A stretch of 29,832 bases of DNA from a virus, in the IMG/VR virus record IMGVR_UViG_3300012012_001993, positions 1-29,832 of that record. One strand, 5' to 3'. Below, one piece after another: positions 5,012 through 29,336 of the stretch (position 1 is the first letter of the stretch; each line of letters starts with the position of its first letter). A program made the position numbers and the translations under genes. The notes beneath the pieces are model-generated. The model was not told the origin of the DNA. It did no database searches and saw only the letters and a program-made list of their open reading frames with translations.

Positions 5012-6142
5012 TTAATTAAAAATATGTTTTAACAAATGCTCTATAATTGGAACTGTAAAAGAATTTCCATAGCATTTATAGGCTTGAGAATTTGAAATTC
5101 CATTGTGATAGAAATCAGGGTATCCTTGGAGTCTAGCACATTCATTTGGGGTTAATTTTCTAACCATGTCTTTTATTTGAACTAAACTATCCTTTGAAAC
5201 GCTAGTAAGGCAATTGGTTTTTTCATCTTCTCTAATCTCTAATGTTTGCTCAGTTTCATTGCTGTTGTTTTTATATCTTCCTCTAATCGCACAGCCTTTA
5301 ATTTCATATAAACCAGTTTTAGCTCCTCTACCGCCACCATTCGCACTAAGGCAAACTGATTTACCATCTGAGCTATAAATCCTATCGCCTTGACCACCTT
5401 TATTAAAATGACCAACTCTAACTGGCTTCTTGAACACAAGTTGTCTTTGACCATGTTCAAAATAATCCTTAGGGCAAGCTCTGGAGTATGTTGCTGTTAT
5501 GCAATATGATTTTAATTTTTCTGTATCGCCACTCTCTAAAATATCTTTTAATAAAATTCCCTTATCTTCTGGTTGAGATATTTCAACTTTTGTATAATTG
5601 CCGTCTAATCCTAAACTACCAACCCAATAAATACGCTTGCGATGCTGAGCTGTAAGTAAAGAACTATTAATTAAGATAGGTTCTATTCCGAATAAATTTT
5701 TAGTTATCTCATTCTTTGCATCGTTAGACATCGAAGCGACATTTTCAAGGATAAAAAATTTTGGTTTAATTTCTTTTAAAATTCTTACATACTCAAAAAA
5801 TAAACTACTTTGTGAACCATTTAAACTTTGCCTGTTTCTTTTTGATATTGATAAATCGGTGCAAGGACTTCCTCCAATTAACAAATCCACATCACTTTTA
5901 AAGCTACCTCCATTTTGCATCGGTTCGTTATCTTGATTATAAAAAATATAATCATCTTCTATTACAATTCCTTTTACATTACCTATCTGAGCAATATCAG
6001 CGTGATTATTTTTAGAGACTTGGATTGCAAATTTATCTATTTCACTCGCATAATAGTCGCAATCTATGTTTAAATTCTTTAAAGCTTGTCTTGCCCCTGA
6101 AATTCCGTCAAAGAGACTGAGGCACCTAATTTTATTTTTCAT
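5012..6142 (-). CDS. DNA (cytosine-5) methyltransferase
   Basis: The product transfers a methyl group from S-adenosylmethionine to cytosine C5 in DNA. The canonical motifs are visible in order: motif I LSLFDGISGARQAL (8-21), motif IV GGSPCTDLS with catalytic Cys94, motif VI ENV (133-135), motif VIII QHRKRIYWVG (166-175), motif IX LTPNECARLQGYPDFY and motif X YGNSFTVPIIEHLL near the C-terminus. The PCTD form of motif IV is a known variant of PCQ. Residues ~180-310 would be target recognition; no specificity can be read from sequence. No partner restriction endonuclease is nearby, so it looks like a solitary phage methylase protecting phage DNA or marking packaged DNA. It overlaps the upstream 105-aa gene by 11 nt, indicating coupled translation. 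Confidence 0.93.
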   Translation of the reverse strand: MKNKIRCLSLFDGISGARQALKNLNIDCDYYASEIDKFAIQVSKNNHADIAQIGNVKGIVIEDDYIFYNQDNEPMQNGGSFKSDVDLLIGGSPCTDLSISKRNRQSLNGSQSSLFFEYVRILKEIKPKFFILENVASMSNDAKNEITKNLFGIEPILINSSLLTAQHRKRIYWVGSLGLDGNYTKVEISQPEDKGILLKDILESGDTEKLKSYCITATYSRACPKDYFEHGQRQLVFKKPVRVGHFNKGGQGDRIYSSDGKSVCLSANGGGRGAKTGLYEIKGCAIRGRYKNNSNETEQTLEIREDEKTNCLTSVSKDSLVQIKDMVRKLTPNECARLQGYPDFYHNGISNSQAYKCYGNSFTVPIIEHLLKHIFN

Positions 6143-6449
6143 TTAATAATTTATTAACTTGTTTTTGTAAGTCTTGGGCTTTTTTATGATTTTCTTTTAA
6201 AAGTTTTAAAAGCCTATTAATAACTTTGTATTTTTGTGGTATTCCACAGCTATACCAGTTATGTTTACAATTTTTCATTGCAAGATAAGAAAACACCTTA
6301 TCGTATGAGTCATTTTCAACTTCTTTTAAATCAACTAAAACAGAAGCATTTTTTTTAACATCTTGTAAAAATAAACCAACTTCTCCAATTTGAGAGCCAA
6401 CTGGTTTTCCTAGCTTTTTATTTATTTTTTCGTTTTTTTCTATATCCAT
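6132..6449 (-). CDS. Hypothetical protein, 105 aa, first gene of methylase operon
   Basis: I do not recognise this protein. It is lysine-rich and soluble. A central segment contains NCKHNWYSCGIP, with two Cys and a His that could bind metal or just be structural. The last ~40 residues look like an amphipathic helix or coiled coil (INRLLKLLKENHKKAQDL). It leads the minus-strand operon and overlaps the methyltransferase start by 11 nt, so a function tied to DNA modification or operon control is possible but only contextual. Its ATG and first codons (MDI) lie inside the 23-bp element it shares with the large terminase gene, which fixes this start with good confidence. Confidence 0.75.
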   Translation of the reverse strand: MDIEKNEKINKKLGKPVGSQIGEVGLFLQDVKKNASVLVDLKEVENDSYDKVFSYLAMKNCKHNWYSCGIPQKYKVINRLLKLLKENHKKAQDLQKQVNKLLNEK

Positions 6450-6503
6450 AAATAAGACTTTTAGTGGTTAATTATTTGACAAATTAGCAAAAATAAATAC
6501 CGT
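6442..6503. promoter_or_regulatory. Divergent promoter module, copy 1
   Basis: Positions 6442-6464, read on the minus strand, are identical over 23 bp to 13814-13836. They contain the ATG of the 105-aa gene, and the core is AAAGTCTTATTTATGGATA. Eleven nt further, 6476-6481 is TTGACA on the plus strand, followed after 16 nt by TACCGT (6498-6503), a weak -10 with TA...T, giving a promoter toward the prohead protease. The -35 lies in an imperfect dyad (6476-6490, TTG..AA-A-TT..CAA) that could bind a regulator. No canonical -10 was identified for the minus direction. Confidence 0.65.
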
Positions 6504-6535
6504 TGCAAGAACTTTTTTTAATAATTTTTCAATAT

Positions 6536-7309
6536 ATGGAAGAAAAAATAATTAAACAATTTTCTGCAAAAGTAGAAGAAATAAAATCTTTGGAAAAATC
6601 GCAGTCCACCGAAGATAAAGATTTTGAAAAATTTCTTTATGTTGGATCGTATATTACAACCTATAATGTAGATTTAGGTAAAGATATTATAGCACCTGGT
6701 GCATTTACCAAGTCAATTAAAGACAAAATGGACAAAGGTCAAAGAATTCCTTTGCTTTTACAGCATAATATGGATTTGCTTTTGGGCCATGCAATATTTT
6801 TTAAAGAAGATAATATTGGCGTATATGTTGAAAGTAGATTGCCAAAAAGTCATTGGCGCGTTAAAGGAGAGATAATCCCATTGTTAGAAAATGGCTCTTT
6901 GCAGGAGTTCTCAGTTGGATTTGGAGTTAAATCTGATGACTATGAAATTGATGAAAATACTGGAATTAGAACAATAAAACAAGCCACTCTTTATGAGTAT
7001 TCGTTTGTTACTTTAGCAATGAATCCAGAAGCTAGATTACAAGGTTTTAAATCAATGATTGAAGAAGTCAAAACACTAAAAGAAACTGAAAAATTACTAA
7101 AGAAAAGAGGGTTTTCTCAATCTGAGGCAAAAGCCCTTATTAGTAAAGTAAAAGAATTTTCTAAAAATCCTTGTGATGAGGAACAGGAAGAAAAAGAAAC
7201 TCAACGAGATGTTGAGGAAAAAACAACCGAATCTATTGACGAAGAAGCAATTCTTAAATCTTTAGATGAATATTTAATCTTAAATCAATTAAACAAATTA
7301 TGTCGTTAG
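6536..7309 (+). CDS. Prohead maturation protease (HK97 gp4-like, S78 type)
   Basis: This 257-aa serine protease cleaves the scaffolding segment of the capsid protein during prohead maturation. The order matches the family: 'YVGSYITTYNVDLGKDIIAPGAF' region near 35-57, QHN with probable catalytic His77, LQEFSVGFG with probable nucleophile Ser126, then TLYEYSFVTLAMNPEA (151-166) completing the active site. The remaining ~90 residues are charged and coiled-coil-like, as often seen in proteases that double as scaffold. I chose the ATG at 6536 over a TTG at 6503, because the TTG overlaps the proposed -10 and the upstream residues have no family match. It overlaps the capsid gene by 10 nt, as is common for protease-capsid pairs. 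Confidence 0.92.
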   Translation: MEEKIIKQFSAKVEEIKSLEKSQSTEDKDFEKFLYVGSYITTYNVDLGKDIIAPGAFTKSIKDKMDKGQRIPLLLQHNMDLLLGHAIFFKEDNIGVYVESRLPKSHWRVKGEIIPLLENGSLQEFSVGFGVKSDDYEIDENTGIRTIKQATLYEYSFVTLAMNPEARLQGFKSMIEEVKTLKETEKLLKKRGFSQSEAKALISKVKEFSKNPCDEEQEEKETQRDVEEKTTESIDEEAILKSLDEYLILNQLNKLCR

Positions 7310-8613
7310 AAATTTTAAAAAAAATTGATGATGTTGCAGGTCAATTAAAGGCTGATGCCCTTACTGAGTCTGAAAAAAAATCATTAGAAATAAAAACTGA
7401 ACTAAAGTCTCAAATTGAAACTGAAGTTAAATCTCTTGAAGCTAAATTGGCTCAAGCAGAAGAATCTAGTAAAAAAAGTATCGAAAAAATTGAAGAAGCT
7501 ATTAATAGCGGCTTTAAATCAGCTTCTGAGAAAACTGATTCAAAATCATACATTCCTTTAAGCTTGAAAGAGGCTCAAATTATTGCACAAACTATTCATA
7601 GCAAATCGCAAATTAAGTTTCACGCTTTGGATAAAAAAGCAATTCGTTTTGGTGATTCAACATCAACAAACACAATTGATAGACCAGCTACTGTAATGGG
7701 TTCTTTTGAAGTCAACAAAGACATTCCTTCAACTATTTTACAAGATGTTGATGTAATGCCTGCTGTAAATGACAATGAAGGCGCTCTTGTTTGGAATACT
7801 TTTGATGAATCTTTAATTGAAGCTTTTGAAGCAAACGAATTAGAAGCCTCTCAGGTAACTAAAGAAGTTGTTTACAGAAATGTTAAATTAGCTCTTAAGA
7901 AAGTTCAGTCAAAAATGAATATTTCTACTGATGTAATTCTTAATGTTATGCAAGGTGGAAATCAAGTTAATGTTCTCGATAGAAACATTGCTGGATTAAA
8001 CCGTAAATTTGACAAGAAAATCATTAAAGATGTTTTCCAAGATGTAATTGCGGCCGCTAACAATAGTCTCGTAGGTAAAACTGCAACCACTACTCAATAT
8101 GCACCAGCAGATGCAACTATTAGAAAAGATTTAAGAAACTTCTTATCAACTTTAAAAAAAGAATTTATAGGCAATTCTGTTATTTATGTTAGCAGACAAC
8201 TTATAAATGCCGCATTTTCTGTTGAAGCTTCTGATGGTCATTTGCCTCTTGAGCAATTTTTTTATTCAAACGACATACAAGCTTTTGTTACGCCAGAAGG
8301 TCTTATTCCAGTAAGAACATTTGAACACGCTCAAATTGGAACTTATAAATCTTTAAATGACGGAACAACTGATATTACAAGCGATTATACCGCCGTTACT
8401 GCAAGCTTATCTGGCAACGCTGGTAAACTACTTGCTTTTGTCGGTGATTTAAAATTTGCTTACAAAGTAATCCCATCTACAATGGGAATAATTGGTTACG
8501 ATTCTAATGTCGGAACTTTACTTGACGGAGCAACTAAAGCTGGTAAGATTGGATATGTAGCCCAAGGTATTGTGGAATCACAAGCTATTAAAGCTCTTTA
8601 TGCAAAAGCTTAA
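7300..8613 (+). CDS. Major capsid protein, HK97 fold
   Basis: This is the main shell protein, 437 aa. Residues ~1-75 are Lys/Glu-rich heptad-like sequence, matching the delta domain that scaffolds the prohead and is removed by the upstream protease. The mature part begins somewhere around residue 85-105 before 'TIDRPATVMGSFEVNKDIPSTIL'. The later pattern is typical of HK97-fold capsids: an A-domain-like 'NSVIYVSRQLINAAF', then 'LIPVRTFEHAQIGTYKSL', and a C-terminal beta-rich end 'LLAFVGDLKFAYKVIPS'. Position directly after the protease and before head-tail connectors supports the call. The exact cleavage site cannot be read. Expression is probably high, and a stable hairpin follows the next gene. 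Confidence 0.92.
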   Translation: MSLEILKKIDDVAGQLKADALTESEKKSLEIKTELKSQIETEVKSLEAKLAQAEESSKKSIEKIEEAINSGFKSASEKTDSKSYIPLSLKEAQIIAQTIHSKSQIKFHALDKKAIRFGDSTSTNTIDRPATVMGSFEVNKDIPSTILQDVDVMPAVNDNEGALVWNTFDESLIEAFEANELEASQVTKEVVYRNVKLALKKVQSKMNISTDVILNVMQGGNQVNVLDRNIAGLNRKFDKKIIKDVFQDVIAAANNSLVGKTATTTQYAPADATIRKDLRNFLSTLKKEFIGNSVIYVSRQLINAAFSVEASDGHLPLEQFFYSNDIQAFVTPEGLIPVRTFEHAQIGTYKSLNDGTTDITSDYTAVTASLSGNAGKLLAFVGDLKFAYKVIPSTMGIIGYDSNVGTLLDGATKAGKIGYVAQGIVESQAIKALYAKA

Positions 8614-8638
8614 TATTAACAATTAAATTATTATATAT

Positions 8639-9085
8639 ATGTCTGAAAATTTAACAGGAATTATAAAAAAAGTAGGAGTAGTTTCTACCGCTAGCACAGC
8701 GGAAGATGCTACTATTGCTGGTTCTGCAATTATAATTGAAGGGGTAAAAGAATTAAAGGTTTTCTTAGATGTGACAACTTGGACTTCTGGCTCTGTAAAA
8801 ATTAAAAATGTGCAATTTGCTGATGATTCATCTTTTGCAGTAAATCCATCTACTTTCACAAGTGATGATTATTTAAATAAAAACGATAGAATATCATCTG
8901 TTTCAGCAATAGACCAAACAAGTTTAGGCGCTGTTGGAACTAAGTGTATCTCACTTAAAAACCTAGCTTTAAATAATCAAAAATATTTTAGAGTGAATTT
9001 TTTAACTGGAGCAGTTAGCACCGATTTAACTTTTAAATCAGAAGTTATTTTGGAATATTTGGATAAACCACAAATCCAATCTTAA
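8639..9085 (+). CDS. Putative capsid-associated or decoration protein
   Basis: I do not recognise a named family. The 148-aa product is predicted mostly beta-strand, rich in Ser/Thr/Val/Ala, with no signal peptide or membrane segment. It sits 25 nt after the major capsid gene and ends just before a strong hairpin, so it is in the highest-expressed part of the head operon. Position and composition fit a capsid decoration or head-stabilising protein, but this is inference from context. Its ATG is preceded by an A/T-only leader (ATTATATATATG) with no Shine-Dalgarno sequence. Confidence 0.75.
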   Translation: MSENLTGIIKKVGVVSTASTAEDATIAGSAIIIEGVKELKVFLDVTTWTSGSVKIKNVQFADDSSFAVNPSTFTSDDYLNKNDRISSVSAIDQTSLGAVGTKCISLKNLALNNQKYFRVNFLTGAVSTDLTFKSEVILEYLDKPQIQS

Positions 9086-9091
9086 TTATAA

Positions 9092-9120
9092 TCCCCCTTT
9101 GCTTAAAAAACAAAGGGGGA
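9092..9120 (+). terminator. Perfect 10-bp hairpin after capsid genes
   Basis: TCCCCCTTTG (9092-9101) and CAAAGGGGGA (9111-9120) form a perfect 10-bp stem with a 9-nt A-rich loop. It is the most GC-rich structure in the structural region. No T-run follows immediately (next bases CAATTAAAAATAATTTTT), so it may be a leaky attenuator or an mRNA 3' stabiliser that keeps capsid message above downstream connector message. Confidence 0.7.
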
Positions 9121-9138
9121 CAATTAAAAATAATTTTT

Positions 9139-9450
9139 ATGATACTATTTGAATTAACTAAAGATTTTAATGAAAACGGAATTGTTCTTAAAAAAGGAGA
9201 ATATACAAAAAACGAATTGATTAAAATTTATGAATCTGAAGATAAATTTAATTTTTGTTTTCAATGCACTTCTTTAAAAGATATTTTAGTTGAGAAAAAA
9301 AATGAAATCGAAACTCCTGAAGATAAACTAGAAGTTGAAATTCCAGTAATTGAAATTGAGACTCCTGAGGATAACTTAGAAATCGAAACTCCTGAAGATA
9401 AACTAGAAGTTGAAACAAAAAATTCTAAAAAAAATAGAAGAAATAAATAA
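9139..9450 (+). CDS. Acidic repeat-containing hypothetical protein, 103 aa
   Basis: The first ~50 residues form a small mixed domain (LTKDFNENGIVLKKGEYTKN) I cannot name, although short proteins with similar starts occur in phage head operons. Residues ~55-93 are tandem acidic repeats based on EIETPEDKL, and the tail is basic (KNSKKNRRNK). The repeat is at the DNA level too: 37 identical bases at 9304-9340 and 9379-9415, with a diverged unit between. The acidic and basic ends suggest a flexible linker or binding tail. It lies between the capsid block and the connector gene, and its stop region overlaps the start of the next gene. Confidence 0.65.
   Translation: MILFELTKDFNENGIVLKKGEYTKNELIKIYESEDKFNFCFQCTSLKDILVEKKNEIETPEDKLEVEIPVIEIETPEDNLEIETPEDKLEVETKNSKKNRRNK
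9304..9415 (+). repeat. Intragenic tandem repeat (EIETPEDKL units)
   Basis: A 37-nt sequence at 9304-9340 recurs exactly at 9379-9415, 75 nt (25 codons) later. A diverged third unit starts at 9352, 27 nt before the last, so the basic unit is nine codons. All spacings are multiples of three, so copy-number change would keep the frame. Confidence 0.9.
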
Positions 9451-10070
9451 TGAATACTTTTTGCTTTAAACAACCAATATCAAATATTCTAGTGTCTAAT
9501 TTTTCACAATTAGCACTAGCAATATCTTTATCTGATGTTAAGGCTCATTTACGCATAACTTTTAATCAAGAAGATGCCCACATCACAAATTTAATAAAAA
9601 CCGCTACACAACGATTTGAAGGCATTACTGGCATAGATTTAATAACAAAGGAATATAAAACATTTCTTGATAATTTTCCGCTTTATTACAACCATTTTGG
9701 TAATTACGAACCAATAAAAATTAAAAGAAGCAAATTACAATCAATTGTATCGATTAAATATTATTTGAATGAAGTTCTAACAACATTTGCTTCTTCTAAT
9801 TATTATTTCACAGAAAGTAATAATTATTCCGAAATATTTTTATATGAAACTAAAGAATATCCAGACGACATAGACAATAGAGCTAATGCTGTTGTTATAA
9901 ATTTTACATCGGGCTTTGGAGCATCGGAAGCTAATATTCCTTTTGATTATAAACAGGCTATTATGGAATACATTGCATTCTTGTATAAAAATAGAGGAGA
10001 TGCTTGTTGCAATAACATGGGAATAGCTTCTCAATTTTTCACTGGTTATCAAAAAGAAATATTTATATGA
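9450..10070 (+). CDS. Head-tail connector (HK97 gp6-like)
   Basis: This 206-aa protein is the probable first connector ring attached under the portal. The N-terminal helical part is characteristic: 'ISLSDVKAHLRITFNQEDAH' then 'ITNLIKTATQRFEGITGIDL', the typical 'LxEvKxHLRID..DD..I..LI..A...vE..TG' pattern of gp6/gp8-like connectors. The middle carries beta strands with 'IKIKRSKLQSIVSIKYY', and the end contains 'IPFDYKQAIMEYIAFLYKNRGD', the conserved 'P..i..A.l.lv...Y.nR' helix. Its length is somewhat above HK97 gp6 and near phiE125 gp8-like members. Its ATG overlaps the previous stop region and it is followed closely by the head-closure gene. Confidence 0.85.
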   Translation: MNTFCFKQPISNILVSNFSQLALAISLSDVKAHLRITFNQEDAHITNLIKTATQRFEGITGIDLITKEYKTFLDNFPLYYNHFGNYEPIKIKRSKLQSIVSIKYYLNEVLTTFASSNYYFTESNNYSEIFLYETKEYPDDIDNRANAVVINFTSGFGASEANIPFDYKQAIMEYIAFLYKNRGDACCNNMGIASQFFTGYQKEIFI

Positions 10071-10074
10071 TATT

Positions 10075-10482
10075 ATGGACAATAATGCTTGCAAGTTTAT
10101 CATTAAGCCTAAAAGAAATGTTCAGATAGGCGACCTAAACACACCAATATCAATAATTACAAAAATTAAAAAAGCGAACAATACAACCTCGCAAGATGTT
10201 TTGTTGGATCAGGATACTTTAGTGCCTAATGCTTGGGCTTTGCAAATCGATGTAAATGGTGAAGATATTTTTAATGGTCAAAACTTACTTGGTAAGGTTA
10301 CTACTCACTTTTACATTAGAAGAGACCCCGCTATAAAAATTAAAGTTGAAAACATGATTATCAGCAGTGGAGAAGCCTACAGAATATTAGAGGTTTTGCC
10401 GAATCTTCACAATGAAGGAATGTTTTCAATGTTCAAATGCAGTCATACTGGTTTATCAAATATTAATTTAAATATTTTGTGA
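10075..10482 (+). CDS. Head closure / head-tail joining protein
   Basis: The 135-aa product fits the phage head-tail joining family (SPP1 gp16 / HK97 gp7 type), which closes the connector after packaging. Supporting pattern: an opening 'IGDLNTPISIITKI', then 'NAWALQIDVNGEDIFNGQNLLGKVTTHFYIRRD' resembling the family's 'W..v....g.e.....q......t...irr...', then 'MIISSGEAYRILEVLPNL', equivalent to 'v...g..y.I..v...d'. Small beta-barrel expected. It lies 4 nt after the gp6-like gene and overlaps the next start by 4 nt (GTGA), showing tight translational coupling. The call rests on pattern plus gene order. Confidence 0.8.
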   Translation: MDNNACKFIIKPKRNVQIGDLNTPISIITKIKKANNTTSQDVLLDQDTLVPNAWALQIDVNGEDIFNGQNLLGKVTTHFYIRRDPAIKIKVENMIISSGEAYRILEVLPNLHNEGMFSMFKCSHTGLSNINLNIL

Positions 10483-11033
10483 ACATAGATATTGATTTAA
10501 AAAAAATAAACTTAACCTCAGAGAATATCGCAAAAGTTAAAGATGCTATAAAAAGAGGTTCTTCTCAAGGATTAAGAAATGCTGGAACTTACATGGTTCA
10601 AGAAATTAGAAGACAAATGACTCTTCCTAAAACTGGTAATACATATATTTTTTATAAATCAAGAGCTAGCAAAACTAGACAAAGAAGTAGATTAAATACT
10701 GGAAGCGTTGGAGGAGATAAAACAATGACTTATCCAGCTCCAGAAGGACTAAAAATACCTGCGGGAAGTTCTTATATGCACAAAGCGTCAAATGCGAGCG
10801 GTTTAGAAAGTTCTGCGGTTTTAACTGGAGAATTAAGTAAAAGTGTTTACACTAAAAGTAGCGGAAGTAATCAGCAAATTATAGGAGCTACTGCACCGCA
10901 CGCCGCTATTCAAGAATTTGGAGGTGCAAATGTCGCCCCAAGAAACAATATCAGGCGACCACTTGCTGAAAATAAAGCTAGAATAGCAAATAAAATACAA
11001 CTTGCTATAAACAATAATTTAAAGGGGTTATAA
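10479..11033 (+). CDS. HK97 gp10-like tail completion/neck protein
   Basis: The 184-aa product resembles the HK97 gp10 family, which sits at the head-tail junction. Seen features are 'GLRNAGTYMVQEIRRQM' near residue 32, a region rich in Ser/Arg/Gly, 'VLTGELSKSVYTKSS', the diagnostic 'TAPHAAIQEFGGA' (usually 'yA..vEfGt') and 'APRNNIRRPLAENKARI' (usually 'p..PFl.pA'). The gene uses a GTG start at 10479 overlapping the previous TGA; this start fits the family N-terminus, and no closer ATG exists. It ends exactly where the next ATG begins. Order gp6, gp7, gp10, terminator matches HK97-like heads. Confidence 0.83.
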   Translation: MNIDIDLKKINLTSENIAKVKDAIKRGSSQGLRNAGTYMVQEIRRQMTLPKTGNTYIFYKSRASKTRQRSRLNTGSVGGDKTMTYPAPEGLKIPAGSSYMHKASNASGLESSAVLTGELSKSVYTKSSGSNQQIIGATAPHAAIQEFGGANVAPRNNIRRPLAENKARIANKIQLAINNNLKGL

Positions 11034-12346
11034 TGCAAACAAGTCAAATAGTCCATCAAATCAAAGCAGTTTTACCTAAATACTCTAATGATTTTTCTGA
11101 CAACATAAATATTACAAATATATCAATTAGTGGAACAAATATCACTTACACGACCGGTGGAAATCATCATATAGAAAATGGCAATACTTTTTTAGTTTGC
11201 GATATTAAAAATTATTATGAAATAACTTCTTTAAAAAAATATGGAAGCATTGCAGTTGCGTTATCAAATAATCACCACAACATTATTAAAACCGCTAACA
11301 CGGTAGAAATGGTTGGTGCAAGCGATGCCAAATATAATGGAGTAAAAACTATAAGTAGAGATATTCTATATTTTAATGTCCAATCTAAAGTTATTAATAA
11401 TGACGATACGGCGACCATTACAACAGTAGAAGACAACCCTTTTATAGTAAACGCTAATTACAAAATAAATATAAATGGAAGTTTGTTGCCCGTCAAATCT
11501 ATCGTTAATTCAAAAACATTTATAATCGACAATTTTATCGGTTTAGCTAACGATAGCGTTTTAACTAAAATATCATTATCGCCATCTACTCATATTTTCT
11601 TTTATGTTATTGACTCAACTGCCGTTAGTTCGCCTACTGGAAGCATTAAATTCTTGGAAAAAAGAAATTTTGGATATAATGGTTATAAAATTGTATCATC
11701 GCATACCCACAACACTATTACCTGCGTAGTAAATGATGCAATTGGTTTACCATATTTACAAAACTCTCCAATCGGAATAATAAAAAGTAGATTAAGAGTT
11801 ATTGGAACTACTGATTACGAGAGAGCAAAAGAGATATTTACAAACGCAGTAGATGCTACAAATCAAACTAAGTCTTGGCTGTTTGTTTATACTCTTCCAA
11901 GGACTACTGGCAAAGACCCTAATGGTAAAACAGATGTTAATGTAGAGAATTTATTAGGCAGTGGAATTTCTGCTAAAATTATACAGGGTTTAGAATTGTG
12001 TGTAATGATAAATTTAGGAGAAACAGCTTCTTCAATTGGATTAGCTGATGAGAAGGATAAAGTATCGCAATACATTAAACCAATTTGTCAGACAATAGCT
12101 GGGTTTATACCTGAATCGCCATTTAGTAATAATGTTGTATATCAAAAACTTACTCCTGTTGTTGACCAAACCAAAGAATCCGAAAAAACTTTTTATTCGC
12201 ATAGTTTTATATTTGAAACATTTATTGAATTTACAAAAGACCAAGAAATAAAAGAATATGATACTACCGCTTTAGCTAACATTAGCTTTGATTTAAAAGA
12301 TGCTAATAACAATAATATCATGTCTTCTATAGGTATAGTTAATTAA
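11033..12346 (+). CDS. Probable tail terminator with large beta-rich insertion
   Basis: Residues ~1-25 (QIVHQIKAVLPKYSNDFSDN) and ~255-437 resemble Mu gp37-type tail terminator proteins, including 'KSWLFVYTLPR', 'CVMINLGE' and 'YSHSFIFETFIEFT'. Between them, residues ~25-250 are a beta-rich insertion with repeated modules such as 'NITYTTGGNHHIENGNTFLV' and 'VEMVGASDAKYNGVKTI', similar to inserts in the baseplate wedge gene at 22588. This explains 437 aa against roughly 150-200 for plain terminators. The position after the gp10-like gene and before the tail block supports the role: capping the tail tube and joining the head. A preceding AAGGGG 5 nt before the ATG may serve as Shine-Dalgarno. 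It converges with the large terminase, the stop codons overlapping. Confidence 0.65.
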   Translation: MQTSQIVHQIKAVLPKYSNDFSDNINITNISISGTNITYTTGGNHHIENGNTFLVCDIKNYYEITSLKKYGSIAVALSNNHHNIIKTANTVEMVGASDAKYNGVKTISRDILYFNVQSKVINNDDTATITTVEDNPFIVNANYKININGSLLPVKSIVNSKTFIIDNFIGLANDSVLTKISLSPSTHIFFYVIDSTAVSSPTGSIKFLEKRNFGYNGYKIVSSHTHNTITCVVNDAIGLPYLQNSPIGIIKSRLRVIGTTDYERAKEIFTNAVDATNQTKSWLFVYTLPRTTGKDPNGKTDVNVENLLGSGISAKIIQGLELCVMINLGETASSIGLADEKDKVSQYIKPICQTIAGFIPESPFSNNVVYQKLTPVVDQTKESEKTFYSHSFIFETFIEFTKDQEIKEYDTTALANISFDLKDANNNNIMSSIGIVN

Positions 12347-13821
12347 ACTGATGTACACCAAAAATCAAATCTAGCTGATTGTGCGACTTCCCAATGTGCA
12401 AATTGACTAAGGCAGTCGCATCGGTCATCATGACGACCTTTTGGAAACTGCATTAATTCACTTTCAAAGCTTGCGTACCAAGTTGCATCTTTAGGGAAAA
12501 AATAAGTTCCACTAGACATTGCACCAGTTGCGGTGGAAAACCTTATCTCTTTTTTTATTCCTCCATGAGAAATGGGAGTTATAGAGATTCCATATAATTT
12601 TTGTTCGTTAGGAAGCTCCTGTATTAAGCTTGAGCCAGTGTTAGCATCTTCTATTATCAAGTCTGTGGCTCTATGACCATTATTGCAAAATGCAATTAAC
12701 GCTTGCTTTGTTTCTGGATATACTTTTCTTTCACAATATTGGTCAATTAAATATTTTGATTTTCCTATTATACCAAACTTTAAAAAAGCACTTGGGTCAT
12801 TGACTTCATTAGGTTTTTGAGCGGAATCGACAGATACAACAACTCTATCAAATTTCATTGAAGATGAATCGGAAATATTAAAAGGCTGAAACCAATTAAT
12901 ATCAACCATATTGCCTCCGTCAGCTACTGGATTTTGCATATATTGAGCAAAAAATACTTGCTTTCCATTTGCAATACCAGTTTCTTCATCAACAACTCTA
13001 TTTCTTAAGCTTTCTAATTCGTGCAATGGCAAATAATCAGGCGATAGCAATTCTCCAGCTTCAAAAACATACTCTTCGTCGTCAAGCACTATAACAGTTC
13101 TTTCTTCAAATATTGCAGGTAAAGAAATAATCTTATATTCGCCCGGTCTAGTCCTAGATAAATATCCAGTTAAATCATTTATACCAAGCCTTTGTTCTAT
13201 TATCAGAATTATACCAACCAATTTATCGACCCTACTATAAAAACTTTCGTCCCAAGCTTTCAACGCAGTTGTTCCTTCGCTTCTAAATATCATATCCGAG
13301 GAGATAAAGTCATCTGGCAACAACATGTCGCATCTTTCGCCAGTTACCTTTGATAGCGTTCCAAAACCTTGCCTCTCACCACCTAGAGAAGTTTTGATAT
13401 GACTTTCTGTATCTTTTACAATAGCTAAATCAGAGAAAACTTTTTTGTATTTCTCAGTTTCCATTATAAGCTTTGTCCAGCCCACATTTCTCGTCACCAA
13501 TTTATCTTTATTTGAAACGCCAAATATTCTTTCGCTTTGCTGTCTTCCTAAATGCCAAGCTGGCAGTGCGGCGGAAATTATTGTTGACTTCATTAAGCCC
13601 GGTGGGATATTCACGATTACTTTTCTATAACCATCTTTTCTCTTAGATGATAATTCGCCTATTTTACACAAAATCTTTGTAGATTTAGATGGCTTTAATT
13701 CTTTATTTGGAAAGATTGCTTTAAAAGCTATATTAGCGAAGAACTCATAAAAATTCTCCCTATATATTATGTTCTTTGTGCTTTCTAATATGCTTTCAAT
13801 TTTTCTTTGGCTAATATCCAT
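12343..13821 (-). CDS. terL: Terminase large subunit
   Basis: The packaging motor ATPase and nuclease, 492 aa from the ATG at 13821. ATPase: Walker A NIPPGLMKST (about 71-80) and Walker B MLLPDD (166-171). Nuclease: Asp332 in VVSVDSAQKP, IIEDANTG (389-396) and HDDRCD (463-468), the usual acidic RNase H-fold set. The longest frame would start at a TTG at 13854, but that TTG lies in the -35-like box; the ATG at 13821 sits in the 23-bp element also found at the 105-aa gene start, so I use it. It is alone on the minus strand between neck and sheath genes, far from the small subunit. Convergence with the tail terminator gene overlaps stop codons by 3 nt. Confidence 0.93.
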   Translation of the reverse strand: MDISQRKIESILESTKNIIYRENFYEFFANIAFKAIFPNKELKPSKSTKILCKIGELSSKRKDGYRKVIVNIPPGLMKSTIISAALPAWHLGRQQSERIFGVSNKDKLVTRNVGWTKLIMETEKYKKVFSDLAIVKDTESHIKTSLGGERQGFGTLSKVTGERCDMLLPDDFISSDMIFRSEGTTALKAWDESFYSRVDKLVGIILIIEQRLGINDLTGYLSRTRPGEYKIISLPAIFEERTVIVLDDEEYVFEAGELLSPDYLPLHELESLRNRVVDEETGIANGKQVFFAQYMQNPVADGGNMVDINWFQPFNISDSSSMKFDRVVVSVDSAQKPNEVNDPSAFLKFGIIGKSKYLIDQYCERKVYPETKQALIAFCNNGHRATDLIIEDANTGSSLIQELPNEQKLYGISITPISHGGIKKEIRFSTATGAMSSGTYFFPKDATWYASFESELMQFPKGRHDDRCDCLSQFAHWEVAQSARFDFWCTSV

Positions 13822-13875
13822 AAATAAGACTTTTAGGCTGTAAAGTGTTGACAATTTTCAAAAAAATCGTATTAT
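13814..13875. promoter_or_regulatory. Divergent promoter module, copy 2
   Basis: Positions 13814-13836 repeat 6442-6464 exactly (23 bp, minus-strand sense), including the large terminase ATG at 13819-13821. After the same 11-nt gap comes plus-strand TTGACA (13848-13853), a 16-nt spacer and TATTAT (13870-13875): a near-consensus promoter for the tail block at 13910. The -35 is within a near-perfect 14-bp dyad (13848-13861, symmetrical at 6 of 7 pairs), which looks like an operator. This is the better-preserved copy of the plus-strand promoter. Confidence 0.75.
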
Positions 13876-13909: not shown

Positions 13910-14098
13910 ATGAAAGCAACATTAACTTTTTTAATAGAGTTTTATCGTAGTCAAAATGAACAATATCATGTTAATGATAAAATCGAAATTGATGTCGATA
14001 GCGAAGGAACTCCAATAGATGGTTTTTGGTATGAGCAATTAAAATTTAACAATGGTCATTTTACATTAGATTTCAACAAAAAACAAAAAACAAAATAG
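13910..14098 (+). CDS. Small pre-sheath protein (Mu gp38/DUF2635-like)
   Basis: This 62-aa protein sits 3 nt before the tail sheath, where Mu-like phages carry a short protein of the DUF2635 type. The visible similarity is limited to 'EGTPIDGFWYEQLKFNNGHF', comparable to the family's 'G..Vp...fW.RRl.dGdV'. The function of that family is not established as far as I know. The gene is the first of the tail operon, about 28 nt after the predicted start site of the promoter at 13848-13875. The ATG follows a purely A/T leader (AATTAAATTTTAAATATG). Confidence 0.65.
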   Translation: MKATLTFLIEFYRSQNEQYHVNDKIEIDVDSEGTPIDGFWYEQLKFNNGHFTLDFNKKQKTK

Positions 14099-14101
14099 TT
14101 T

Positions 14102-15634
14102 ATGTCTCAAAGTTCACCCGATATTAATATTCAATTAATTGCTGGTCAAGCTCAATCTGGTTTAGGTTTGAGAAAGCAACTAATCCTTGCTCAAGGAACT
14201 TCTAGTGGAAGTTTTACTTCGGGTAATTTAATTGAAAATGTTCCAAGTTCTATTGATGAATTAAAAGCCCTTTGTGGAGCAAATTCTCTAGCTTATTTAG
14301 CTATTAAAGAGTTTAAAGAGATTAACAAAGAATCTCCTTTGAGTGCTATTATCGTTGCAGATAATGGTTCTGGTGTGGCCGCAACAGGTTCAGTTGTTAT
14401 TACTGCATCAAGCCCTAAGAATGGTAAAGCTGTATTTATCATTGGCTCAGGTGTTAAAAATAAATACGAGATTGATGTTTTGACAACTTCAACCGCTACT
14501 ACTATAGGTGATTCTTTAGCCGCTTTAGTTAATGCTGATGAAAACGCTGTTGTTGCAGCTTCAAATTCTAGCGGAACTGTTACCTTTACAGCAAAAAATA
14601 AAGGAACAGAAGCGAATCAGTATGCTATTTATGTAGAAAGCTTACCAATTAATGTTTCGGTTGCTATTACTGCTTTTTCTAGCGGCGCTACTGACCCAGT
14701 TATTACAAATGTTTTGAATAAAATTAAAAATGCTAGATACGATATAGCAACTCAAAAATGTTTCTTGTCAGAAGTTAAAACTCATTTAGAAGCTAAATTT
14801 AACACACTAAACCAAACTTATGAATCTTACTGCACAGTTTCTCAAGTGGATAGTTATGCTAACGCTCAAACTACTTTAGGAAGCTTAAATTCAAAAGTTG
14901 TAAACGCAGTATTTTTCAAAACTGCCAATGAAACAAATATTAAAGGCTCATCAACATTAGTAATTCCTTTGGTTTTTTCTGCAAAATTACTAGCTACAGA
15001 TTCATTAAGATTAGTTCCCGATGCGCCAATTGCAAGCTTTATGCAATTTCCAGTTGCTTCTGGCGGAATTAATAAAGTTGCCGTTCCTTTCCATGGAGTT
15101 AAAGTTCCTAATATGTATAAAATTCCACAAGGAATAAGCTGGTTAGATGAAGAAATCAAAGCTATCGAAGAATTAGGTGGTTCTGTTGCAGTAATGGACG
15201 AGTCTAATATAAATGTCATAACTAGACCAAGATACATGACAGTTTATAAGAAAGCTAGCATTACTGACGATGGTCAAACTTACATGAATTTAAATAAGTT
15301 CTTAAATTCAGCCATTGTAAAAGAATATGTTTATAAAGAATGGAAAAAAAGATATGCACAAGCCGTATTGACTAATGGTAAAATTCCATCTGCAGTATCA
15401 GATGTAATTTATGTGGATGTTCAATCTGCAAAAGCTTTGCTTTTATCAATATTTAAAACAATGTCAGAAGAAGGTATTGTTCAATTTGATGACAATGGCC
15501 CACTTCAAGAAGCTTTTCAAAAAAGCCTTATTATAAACATAAACACAGCTACTAATAGCATGAGTGGTTCTGCTTCTTATTATAATATGGGACAACTTGA
15601 AAAAATTTCATTCAACTTAACAGCAAACTCTTAA
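14102..15634 (+). CDS. Tail sheath protein (Mu gpL-like)
   Basis: This 510-aa protein forms the contractile sheath around the tail tube. The N-terminus ('GQAQSGLGLRKQLILAQGTSSGS') matches the Mu gpL pattern in which a short opening leads to 'l.lGQ...G'. Middle residues ~85-200 are beta-rich and Ser/Thr-rich, probably the surface-exposed domain. The C-terminal part carries 'VITRPRYMTVYKKASITDDG', 'YMNLNKFLNSAIVKEYVYKEWKKRYAQ' in two adjacent pieces, and ends with beta strands as expected for the conserved core that makes inter-subunit handshakes. Followed after 4 nt by the tube gene, as in all contractile systems. Confidence is high on both motif and order. Confidence 0.9.
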   Translation: MSQSSPDINIQLIAGQAQSGLGLRKQLILAQGTSSGSFTSGNLIENVPSSIDELKALCGANSLAYLAIKEFKEINKESPLSAIIVADNGSGVAATGSVVITASSPKNGKAVFIIGSGVKNKYEIDVLTTSTATTIGDSLAALVNADENAVVAASNSSGTVTFTAKNKGTEANQYAIYVESLPINVSVAITAFSSGATDPVITNVLNKIKNARYDIATQKCFLSEVKTHLEAKFNTLNQTYESYCTVSQVDSYANAQTTLGSLNSKVVNAVFFKTANETNIKGSSTLVIPLVFSAKLLATDSLRLVPDAPIASFMQFPVASGGINKVAVPFHGVKVPNMYKIPQGISWLDEEIKAIEELGGSVAVMDESNINVITRPRYMTVYKKASITDDGQTYMNLNKFLNSAIVKEYVYKEWKKRYAQAVLTNGKIPSAVSDVIYVDVQSAKALLLSIFKTMSEEGIVQFDDNGPLQEAFQKSLIININTATNSMSGSASYYNMGQLEKISFNLTANS

Positions 15635-21606: not shown

Positions 21607-22116
21607 ATGGAACATAGTTATACAAATTTAGGAATAATTACAGCGGTTGAAATTGTCGATCAACTTATTTACGCAAAAGTGAAATTAATCAGAAATGATG
21701 TAGAGATTGATGATGTATTAATTGTAAGCTCAATGGGCATTAGTGGAACTCCTAAAGTAGGCTGTCATTGTATTGTTGTTAACACTGATTGCGATACATC
21801 TAAAAATTATGGTCATGTAATAGATCTATTTGACATAAACTCAGTTAATGACGGAGTTGTTGTTTATGGCAGAAATGGCAATAAAGTCTTATTTATGGAT
21901 AACGGAAATATTGACATTGTTAGCGAAAAAAATAAAATAACACTTAAGGGCAATAGTATAGAGATTACTGGGAATGTAAAGATAACTGGAAATTTAGAAG
22001 TTTCTGGAGATTCAATATTAATAGGAACTGGAACTAAAATTGCTAATAAAACTTTCCTAAGCCATATACATTCAGGAGTTCTGAGTGGGCCGGGGTCAAC
22101 TGGAGGTGTCGTATGA
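21607..22116 (+). CDS. Baseplate spike / assembly protein (Mu gp45, gpV-like)
   Basis: This 169-aa protein forms the trimeric membrane-piercing spike at the tail tip. The N-terminal ~85 residues are an OB-fold-like barrel ('LGIITAVEIVDQLIYAKVKL', 'DDVLIVSSMGISGTPKVGCH'). Residues ~95-150 are the repetitive beta-helix with 'GNSIEITGNVKITGNLEVSG'. Near the end 'HIHSG' (153-157) gives the His-x-His that holds iron at the tip in P2 gpV and related spikes. The gene also contains a 19-bp copy of the promoter-leader element at 21883-21901, ending at in-frame Met97. It provides the GGAGG for the next gene and overlaps it by 4 nt. Confidence 0.9.
   Translation: MEHSYTNLGIITAVEIVDQLIYAKVKLIRNDVEIDDVLIVSSMGISGTPKVGCHCIVVNTDCDTSKNYGHVIDLFDINSVNDGVVVYGRNGNKVLFMDNGNIDIVSEKNKITLKGNSIEITGNVKITGNLEVSGDSILIGTGTKIANKTFLSHIHSGVLSGPGSTGGVV
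21883..21901 (+). repeat. Intragenic third copy of the shared leader element
   Basis: AAAGTCTTATTTATGGATA here is identical over 19 bp to the start-codon region of the 105-aa gene and of the large terminase gene, which carry it on the minus strand. Here it is plus-strand and in the same reading phase (KVLFMD). The upstream TTGACAA box is not present at the conserved 11-nt distance. Confidence 0.8.
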
Positions 22117-28805: not shown

Positions 28806-29336
28806 ATGATAATTTTTCTAATATTATTCCTACTAGCCTCACCAGCTCAAGCAGAATATTTAAGAGCTGATTATGGCTCATGGATTGATTCTGATAATGA
28901 TTGCCAAAATACAAGGCAAGAGATTTTAATTAGAGAAAGTATAATAATTCCGACGCTCAATGAGAAAGGTTGCAAAGTAATTTCTGGCTTGTGGGAAGAT
29001 AAATATTCAGGTAAATTTTTCACTAATCCTAAAGATTTAGATATTGACCATTTTGTGCCTTTGGCAGAAGTAGATAGGAGCGGTGGTAGTAAGTGGACAA
29101 AAGAAAAAAAAATTGCTTATGCGAACGATTTAACAAACCAAGAGACTCTAATTGCAGTAAGTGCTAGTCAAAATCGAGCAAAAGGAGATAAAGACATTTC
29201 CGATTGGCTACCCGAAAATAAAAATTATCATTGTAATTATGTTGCAAGATGGATTATAGTCAAACAAACTTGGAATTTGACGATTGATGAAAAAGAACAA
29301 TCGGCAATCGATAAAATTTTAAAGAAATGTTATTAA
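28806..29336 (+). CDS. Exported HNH endonuclease (DUF1524/GmrSD C-terminal type)
   Basis: The 176-aa product starts with a Sec signal peptide: hydrophobic MIIFLILFLLASP, then AQA before a likely cut after residue 16. The mature protein carries the nuclease core: 'GSWIDSDNDCQNTRQEIL', 'LDIDHFVPLAEVDRSGGSKW' with the DH pair (Asp81-His82), 'YANDLTNQETLIAVSASQNR' and 'KGDKDISDWLP', as in secreted HNH/DUF1524 nucleases. The mature protein has four Cys (33, 56, 143, 175), consistent with disulfides outside the cytoplasm. It is the last gene of the lysis block. It may degrade DNA in the periplasm or medium around lysis, or block incoming DNA of rival phages. Its substrate cannot be read from sequence. 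Confidence 0.85.
   Translation: MIIFLILFLLASPAQAEYLRADYGSWIDSDNDCQNTRQEILIRESIIIPTLNEKGCKVISGLWEDKYSGKFFTNPKDLDIDHFVPLAEVDRSGGSKWTKEKKIAYANDLTNQETLIAVSASQNRAKGDKDISDWLPENKNYHCNYVARWIIVKQTWNLTIDEKEQSAIDKILKKCY

Follow-up and report, generated by a model that had tools for sequence, protein, structure and literature searches.

Why should two unrelated genes of one phage carry the same sequence over their start codons? This question is raised by IMGVR_UViG_3300012012_001993, an IMG/VR-type virus record of 29,832 bases with a myovirus-like late region (the window, that is, the whole stretch of DNA that was analyzed). As an earlier note on this DNA had described, 23 identical bp (the 23-mer) cover the ATG and the first codons of two minus-strand genes, one encoding a 105-aa protein (p105; site 1) and the other the large terminase (terL; site 2). 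Comparison with related phages suggests that the core of the 23-mer, the element M (-14 to +7 relative to the ATG), is probably an operator at which a trans-acting phage regulator would repress two minus-strand units, p105 being the likeliest regulator.

A rare element over two start codons

The two copies and the genes that they enter are the following:

6442..6464, minus strand: M copy 1, 23-mer CTAAAAGTCTTATTTATGGATAT, over the p105 start codon
13814..13836, minus strand: M copy 2, identical 23-mer, over the terL start codon
6132..6449, minus strand: p105, 105 aa, basic (pI 9.5), predicted all-helical, of no known family; candidate M-binding regulator
12343..13821, minus strand: terL, terminase large subunit (phrog_38, E 3.7e-72)

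Both copies span ATG GAT AT (MDI), and TTGACAA begins 11 nt beyond the 23-mer at each site (6476 and 13848). The terL ORF also has an in-frame TTG upstream, yet its homologues align from the ATG within the 23-mer. According to an order-3 Markov model, 1.2e-8 copies of the 23-mer are expected in the window. A 23-mer repeat appeared in 0 of 100 dinucleotide shuffles, and the longest repeats in 60 simulated windows measured 15-22 nt. That the repeat arose by chance, or is what remains of a recent duplication, is hardly credible. Although the sequence is A+T-rich, the expected copy number excludes chance, and any duplication would be old because both sites occur in three lineages whose terL proteins are 66-80% identical (see below). 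The 36 other gene starts in the window do not carry M. A degenerate M pattern searched over 2.9 million IMG/VR contigs matched only these sites in these phages.

The two copies of M change together

Relatives were gathered by terL and capsid searches of IMG/VR; none were found in GTDB genomes, and no close ones in phage and plasmid collections. L007 and L011 are near-identical to the window. Two further lineages were compared, L10 (L005, L006, L008, L010; terL ~80% identical to the window) and L23 (L023, L024, L025; terL 66% identical). Both sites are present in L010, L023, L024, and L025, so that the comparison comprises six independent sites, two per lineage. At 6/6 sites in the three lineages, a TTGTCAA-like box (TTGTCAA, TTGTCCA, or AAGTCAA) is separated from the ATG by exactly 26 nt, and at all six the N26 spacer is followed by ATGGA. 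The earlier note counted a lack of conservation of the element or its spacing in related phages as a refutation. The element withstands this test, both sites and the spacing being kept in the two other lineages, although the 23-mer itself varies in sequence: its terL version is TTTAGCTTTATTTTATGGAAA in L10 and TAAGAGTCTAATATATGGATA in L23.

Within a genome, M at site 1 matches M at site 2 at 21/21 positions in the window, 21/21 in L23, and 17/21 in L10. At the same gene, M differs between lineages by 3 to 9 mismatches (3 between the window and L23, 7-9 between L10 and the others). From the window to L23, M changes at -11 (A>G), -5 (T>A), and -2 (T>A), with the same letters at both sites and zero unmatched changes; by simple counting, three changes would coincide in position and letter within 21 nt with a chance of ~3e-5. 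In these two lineages M reads UAARAGUCUWAUWUAUGGAUA. The 12 nt adjoining M (-26..-15) show 5-9 differences between the two sites within every genome. The two copies thus change together while their flanks diverge, which is the pattern of operators that follow a changing regulator, and this concerted evolution points to M as a site that a phage regulator binds. The earlier proposal that a regulatory element has been duplicated at two divergent boundaries, where one phage regulator probably reads it, gains from these data, since sites, spacing, and boxes persist and the copies co-vary.

Gene conversion or recombination could also keep the copies alike, in which case M would be a module-boundary sequence and not an operator. 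These phages are mosaic, the window and L007 being ~98% identical around p105 and ~70% in the protease gene right past the site-1 promoter. However, the likeness between the copies stops sharply at M, the neighboring 12 nt differing at the 5-9 positions given above. Moreover, ordinary homologous exchange needs tracts longer than 21 nt, a crossover between the direct repeats would delete the region from the protease to terL, and a third copy is inverted and lies within a coding sequence. We consider this explanation improbable.

A third copy lies in the spike gene

This copy, together with the gene that contains it, is located as follows:

21883..21901, plus strand: M copy 3, AAAGTCTTATTTATGGATA, 19-nt exact, in the spike gene, sense, with its ATG in frame (K V L F M D N)
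21607..22116, plus strand: baseplate spike gene, presumably Mu gp45-like from its position and sequence; contains M copy 3

The 19-nt match is expected 1.9e-6 times by chance, and over 21 nt the copy differs from M at 2 positions. The next best match in the window has 5 mismatches, which leaves three sites counted. All three copies are asymmetric and in sense orientation relative to transcription (3/3). In L010, the orthologous spike codons read AGCTTTATTTTATGGA and are identical over 16 nt to the terL site of L010 itself; those of L006 differ from them by one base. The spike codons of L23 read GAGTCTTTTTTATGGA, against GAGTCTAATATATGGA at the M site of the same lineage. The spike copy strengthens the case, made here from sequence comparison, that M may be recognized in its own right, although coincidence with protein constraint retains some residual probability as the source of the matches in L10 and L23. 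A TTGACA-N16-TAAAAT sequence stands after the spike copy in all three lineages; it is weak evidence for a promoter because the protein sequence is conserved there. If M is an operator, the spike copy would represent a coding sequence constrained by it.

p105 is the leading candidate for the regulator

Pairwise identities were compared with the distances between M versions. For nearly every comparable protein, the closest pair is window-L10 or L10-L23. Only p105 has the window and L23 clearly closest (63%) and L10 equally far from each of them (46%), which is the same shape as that of the M distances. The shape for terL is the opposite of that for M, with 80% between window and L10 and 66% between window and L23. 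Because the divergence of M tracks p105 and no other gene compared, p105 is the leading candidate for the regulator and, as a candidate and not a demonstrated binder, the likeliest one. An invariant block, YLxMKNxKxNWYxxGIxxKYKV, is found in the p105 proteins.

Several observations weigh against the proposal that M is an operator with p105 as its regulator. Scans of p105 against Pfam, PHROG, and PDB gave no match and no recognized DNA- or RNA-binding domain, and its structure model is poor (pLDDT 61, helical, low confidence). The early region, the expected place of other regulators, lies outside the window, and L10 and L23 encode small proteins there that resemble helix-turn-helix (HTH) proteins. 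The sample holds only three lineages, so that the match between M and p105 is a single contrast. Moreover, the two M copies of L10 differ at 4/21 positions, the L23 spike copy, with 6 mismatches, is inconspicuous, and the minus strand at site 2 shows no convincing promoter, just A-rich -10-like boxes (TAAAAA, TAAAAT).

The methylase gene was also considered as the source of the regulator and was rejected. L10 and L23 share their methylase (96% over 112 aa) yet differ in M, and the methylases of the window and L23 differ (24%) yet M is similar. Behind p105, which stays, the methylase comes in two kinds:

5012-6142: methylase of the window type, 376 aa
L010:17611-18639 and L025:7853-8881: methylase of the L10/L23 type, 342 aa

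On a broader proposal, p105 would be the first member of a new family of small autoregulatory phage proteins. These would link DNA modification with the packaging motor by binding a single asymmetric element of 21 nt at start codons, and a third copy of the element, inside the tail-spike coding sequence, would make protein sequence and operator evolve together there. We regard this as rather doubtful. If p105 does bind M, it would stand for a regulator family without recognized relatives.

Predicted promoters adjoining M

Promoter-like boxes were found on both strands at site 1 and on the plus strand at site 2:

6476..6503, plus strand: promoter-like boxes TTGACA-N16-TACCGT (weak -10), ahead of the prohead protease gene
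13848..13875, plus strand: promoter TTGACA-N16-TATTAT (strong), ahead of the 62-aa ORF and the tail sheath gene
6481..6508, minus strand, read from 6508 down to 6481: promoter-like boxes TTGCAA-N16-TAATTT for p105, antiparallel to the plus promoter and overlapping it

The plus-strand boxes, with TTGACAA 11 nt from each 23-mer, are as the earlier note gave them, and -35/-10 pairs are kept at both sites in the two other lineages. At site 1 they read TGGACA-N16-TATCCT (L10) and TTGACA-N16-TATTGT (L23), and at site 2 TTGACA-N17-TATTTT (L10) and TTGACT-N17-TATTTT (L23). Little is left of the dyads reported at the -35s, beyond the fact that TTGACAA is a 7-bp odd palindrome. The minus-strand boxes at site 1 recur as TTGCAA-N17-TATTTT in L10 and TTGACA-N17-TAATTT in L23. 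The antiparallel, overlapping pairs are thus seen at site 1 in three lineages, while at site 2 the plus promoter alone is clear. Judged from these sequences, the overlapping promoters at site 1 would allow a two-way switch.

At site 1, the minus-strand -10 occupies -37..-32 relative to the p105 ATG and abuts GTCAA. The predicted p105 leader is therefore ~25 nt long, and M would form its last part together with the first codons. We also considered a leaderless or special translation-start signal that involves no regulator. M abuts the ATG, and Shine-Dalgarno sites are few in this phage: a match is absent in 31/38 window genes, whose starts are preceded by A+T-rich stretches. However, the predicted leader, which is supported by the site-1 minus boxes (TTGCAA/TTGACA-N16/17-TAATTT/TATTTT) in three lineages, argues against the near-leaderless mRNA that had been suggested, and no consistent leaderless-type -10 (at -12..-7) was found in the six sites. 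A plain translation signal, also suggested earlier, is unlikely because 36 other window starts do without M, and a fixed signal would stay constant across lineages and not change in concert. We hold such a signal to be very improbable.

Four other identities for the conserved sequences were rejected. An RNA hairpin is not indicated, since z-scores are near 0 and Rfam gave no match. An alternative sigma factor could read TTGTCA on the minus strand, but the terL box of L23 is AAGTCA and keeps the plus reading TTGAC, so that the box is chiefly a plus-strand -35. The likeness to a promoter of a T7-like single-subunit RNA polymerase is superficial, and the parts of L10 and of G004 (L23 lineage) that were read contain no ORF of the required size. 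The likeness to C-protein boxes is only partial (GACT-N3-AG).

Proposed mechanism and level of action

In the proposed mechanism, the regulator would bind M over the leader end and the start codon of two minus-strand units, p105-methylase and terL. Binding would repress both units, by blocking either RNA polymerase on the DNA or ribosomes on the mRNA. The DNA-modification unit and the packaging motor would in this way be tied to one signal, and the head and tail genes would be served by the sigma70-type promoters next to M on the plus strand, whose TTGACA lies 11 nt from the 23-mer. With p105 itself as the regulator, the system would be autoregulatory. We infer here the protein binding of M, p105 as the binder, repression as the effect, and the DNA or RNA level of action. 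In outline, our results agree with the earlier suggestion that one regulator co-ordinates modification and packaging genes; the third copy, the site-1 minus promoter-like pair, and the link between M and p105 go beyond it. Action on DNA (a roadblock of the stoperator kind) and action on RNA (an AUG covered as by RegA) seem about equally likely, and either is compatible with all three copies being in sense.

If M acts on DNA, it would be a stoperator-like asymmetric site, fixed in orientation relative to transcription, at which a monomeric repressor would prevent initiation or halt elongation. Stoperators of cluster A mycobacteriophages (L5, TipsytheTRex) are short, asymmetric, scattered sites in one orientation relative to transcription, and their motif varies among related phages in step with the repressor (PMC9283540, PMC6550527). 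M resembles them in its asymmetry and single orientation and in being lineage-specific, and it may likewise vary in step with its regulator: it follows one protein, p105, in one three-lineage contrast, p105 being a candidate binder only. The single spacing kept between box and M also fits. Unlike stoperators, which number 20 or more, M has three sites of 19-23 nt, at the packaging and modification start codons and in the spike gene, and not more than twenty. No HTH repressor was identified and no sign of lysogeny was seen in this window; an immunity repressor homologue with an HTH was likewise not found, p105 being without Pfam, PHROG, or PDB match and the early region outside the window. We consider a DNA-level operator of this kind possible, though tentative.

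As a translational operator, M would be bound by a small phage protein that covers the AUG region of the p105 and terL mRNAs in the manner of RegA, the spike copy being a further site or an internal start. T4 RegA is one small phage protein that targets the AUG region of several mRNAs; its sites, about 30 in number, overlap or abut the AUG and are A+U-rich and unstructured, with no clear sequence conservation (PMC3014915). M likewise overlaps the AUG of p105 and terL, and its three copies share the sense orientation. The leaders are weakly structured, and ribosomes must use the A+U-rich start region in the 31/38 genes without a Shine-Dalgarno match, a region that a protein could cover. In contrast to RegA sites, M is strict and rare in sequence, and the spike copy is internal to an open frame, so that a protein bound to it would be knocked off by elongating ribosomes. 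A fixed DNA spacing to the TTGACAA box is not required at the RNA level, though a fixed leader length would give the same. No similarity between p105 and known translational repressors was detected; Pfam and PHROG scans gave no match to the RegA family, the window being part of a genome. This version appears somewhat unlikely.

Relation to divergent promoter systems

Bidirectional promoters have been described (PMC12825309), and in pLS20, RcoLS20 works with overlapping divergent promoters, autoregulation, and looping (PMC4207663). Similarly, the two antiparallel sigma70-type promoters predicted at site 1 share DNA, so that one polymerase would exclude the other; unlike in these systems, M is placed at the start codon, outside the promoter core. 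DNA looping over the 7-8 kb between the two sites is speculation. The late divergent promoters of P2 and Mu place divergent head, packaging, and tail operons under a shared phage regulator (Ogr and C, respectively). Unlike those, the plus promoters found here have a near-consensus -35 and could apparently work without an activator. Among the proteins scanned, none was seen to be a homologue of Ogr or C, though no search aimed at these was made.

Precedents thus exist for operators that follow their repressor (PMC6550527, PMC9283540), for operators in mRNA that lie at the AUG (PMC3014915), and for divergent promoters that overlap (PMC4207663, PMC12825309). The placement of M over terL and a methylase-linked gene, with a further copy in a coding region, was not met in a limited literature search. 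Only a few tailed-phage models have shown how expression of the packaging motor is timed against that of the head and tail genes, and here sequence alone gives a cis element, two target units, lineage-specific versions, and a candidate regulator.

Neighboring genes and other observations

Genes recognized in the window include those for the terminase small subunit, portal, prohead protease, head-tail adaptor, terminase large subunit, and tail sheath. The minus-strand block before site 1 consists of dUTPase, cytosine methylase, and p105. Plus-strand genes, from the prohead protease through ORF 11033-12346, lie between sites 1 and 2. This block is followed by terL on the minus strand, then by the plus-strand 62-aa ORF, the sheath gene, and the remaining tail genes.

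6536..7309, plus strand: prohead protease (Peptidase_S78, E 1.8e-18)
13910..14098, plus strand: 62-aa ORF, first gene of the tail block
14102-15634, plus strand: tail sheath, directly after the 62-aa ORF in the tail block

The prohead protease gene is mosaic: the window and L007 are ~98% identical as far as the site-1 promoter and again beyond 7180, and ~70% within 6543-7180. Recombinant late regions are also seen in L006 (15211-15888) and L009, whose capsid is window-like (95-97% identical) and whose terL is L10-like (80-82% identical to the window). In the window, a 37-nt exact tandem-like repeat lies at 9291-9415 in the coding sequence of ORF 9139-9450 (ETPEDKLEVE repeats), and a small protein with a GmrSD_C (HNH-type) domain is encoded at 28806-29336, at the end of the late region. 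In the L23 lineage, the portal gene (L025:3783-6608, also in L024) is interrupted by an in-frame, intein-like insertion (CLTHDTQVLLADG ... VHN C), which was recognized by eye.

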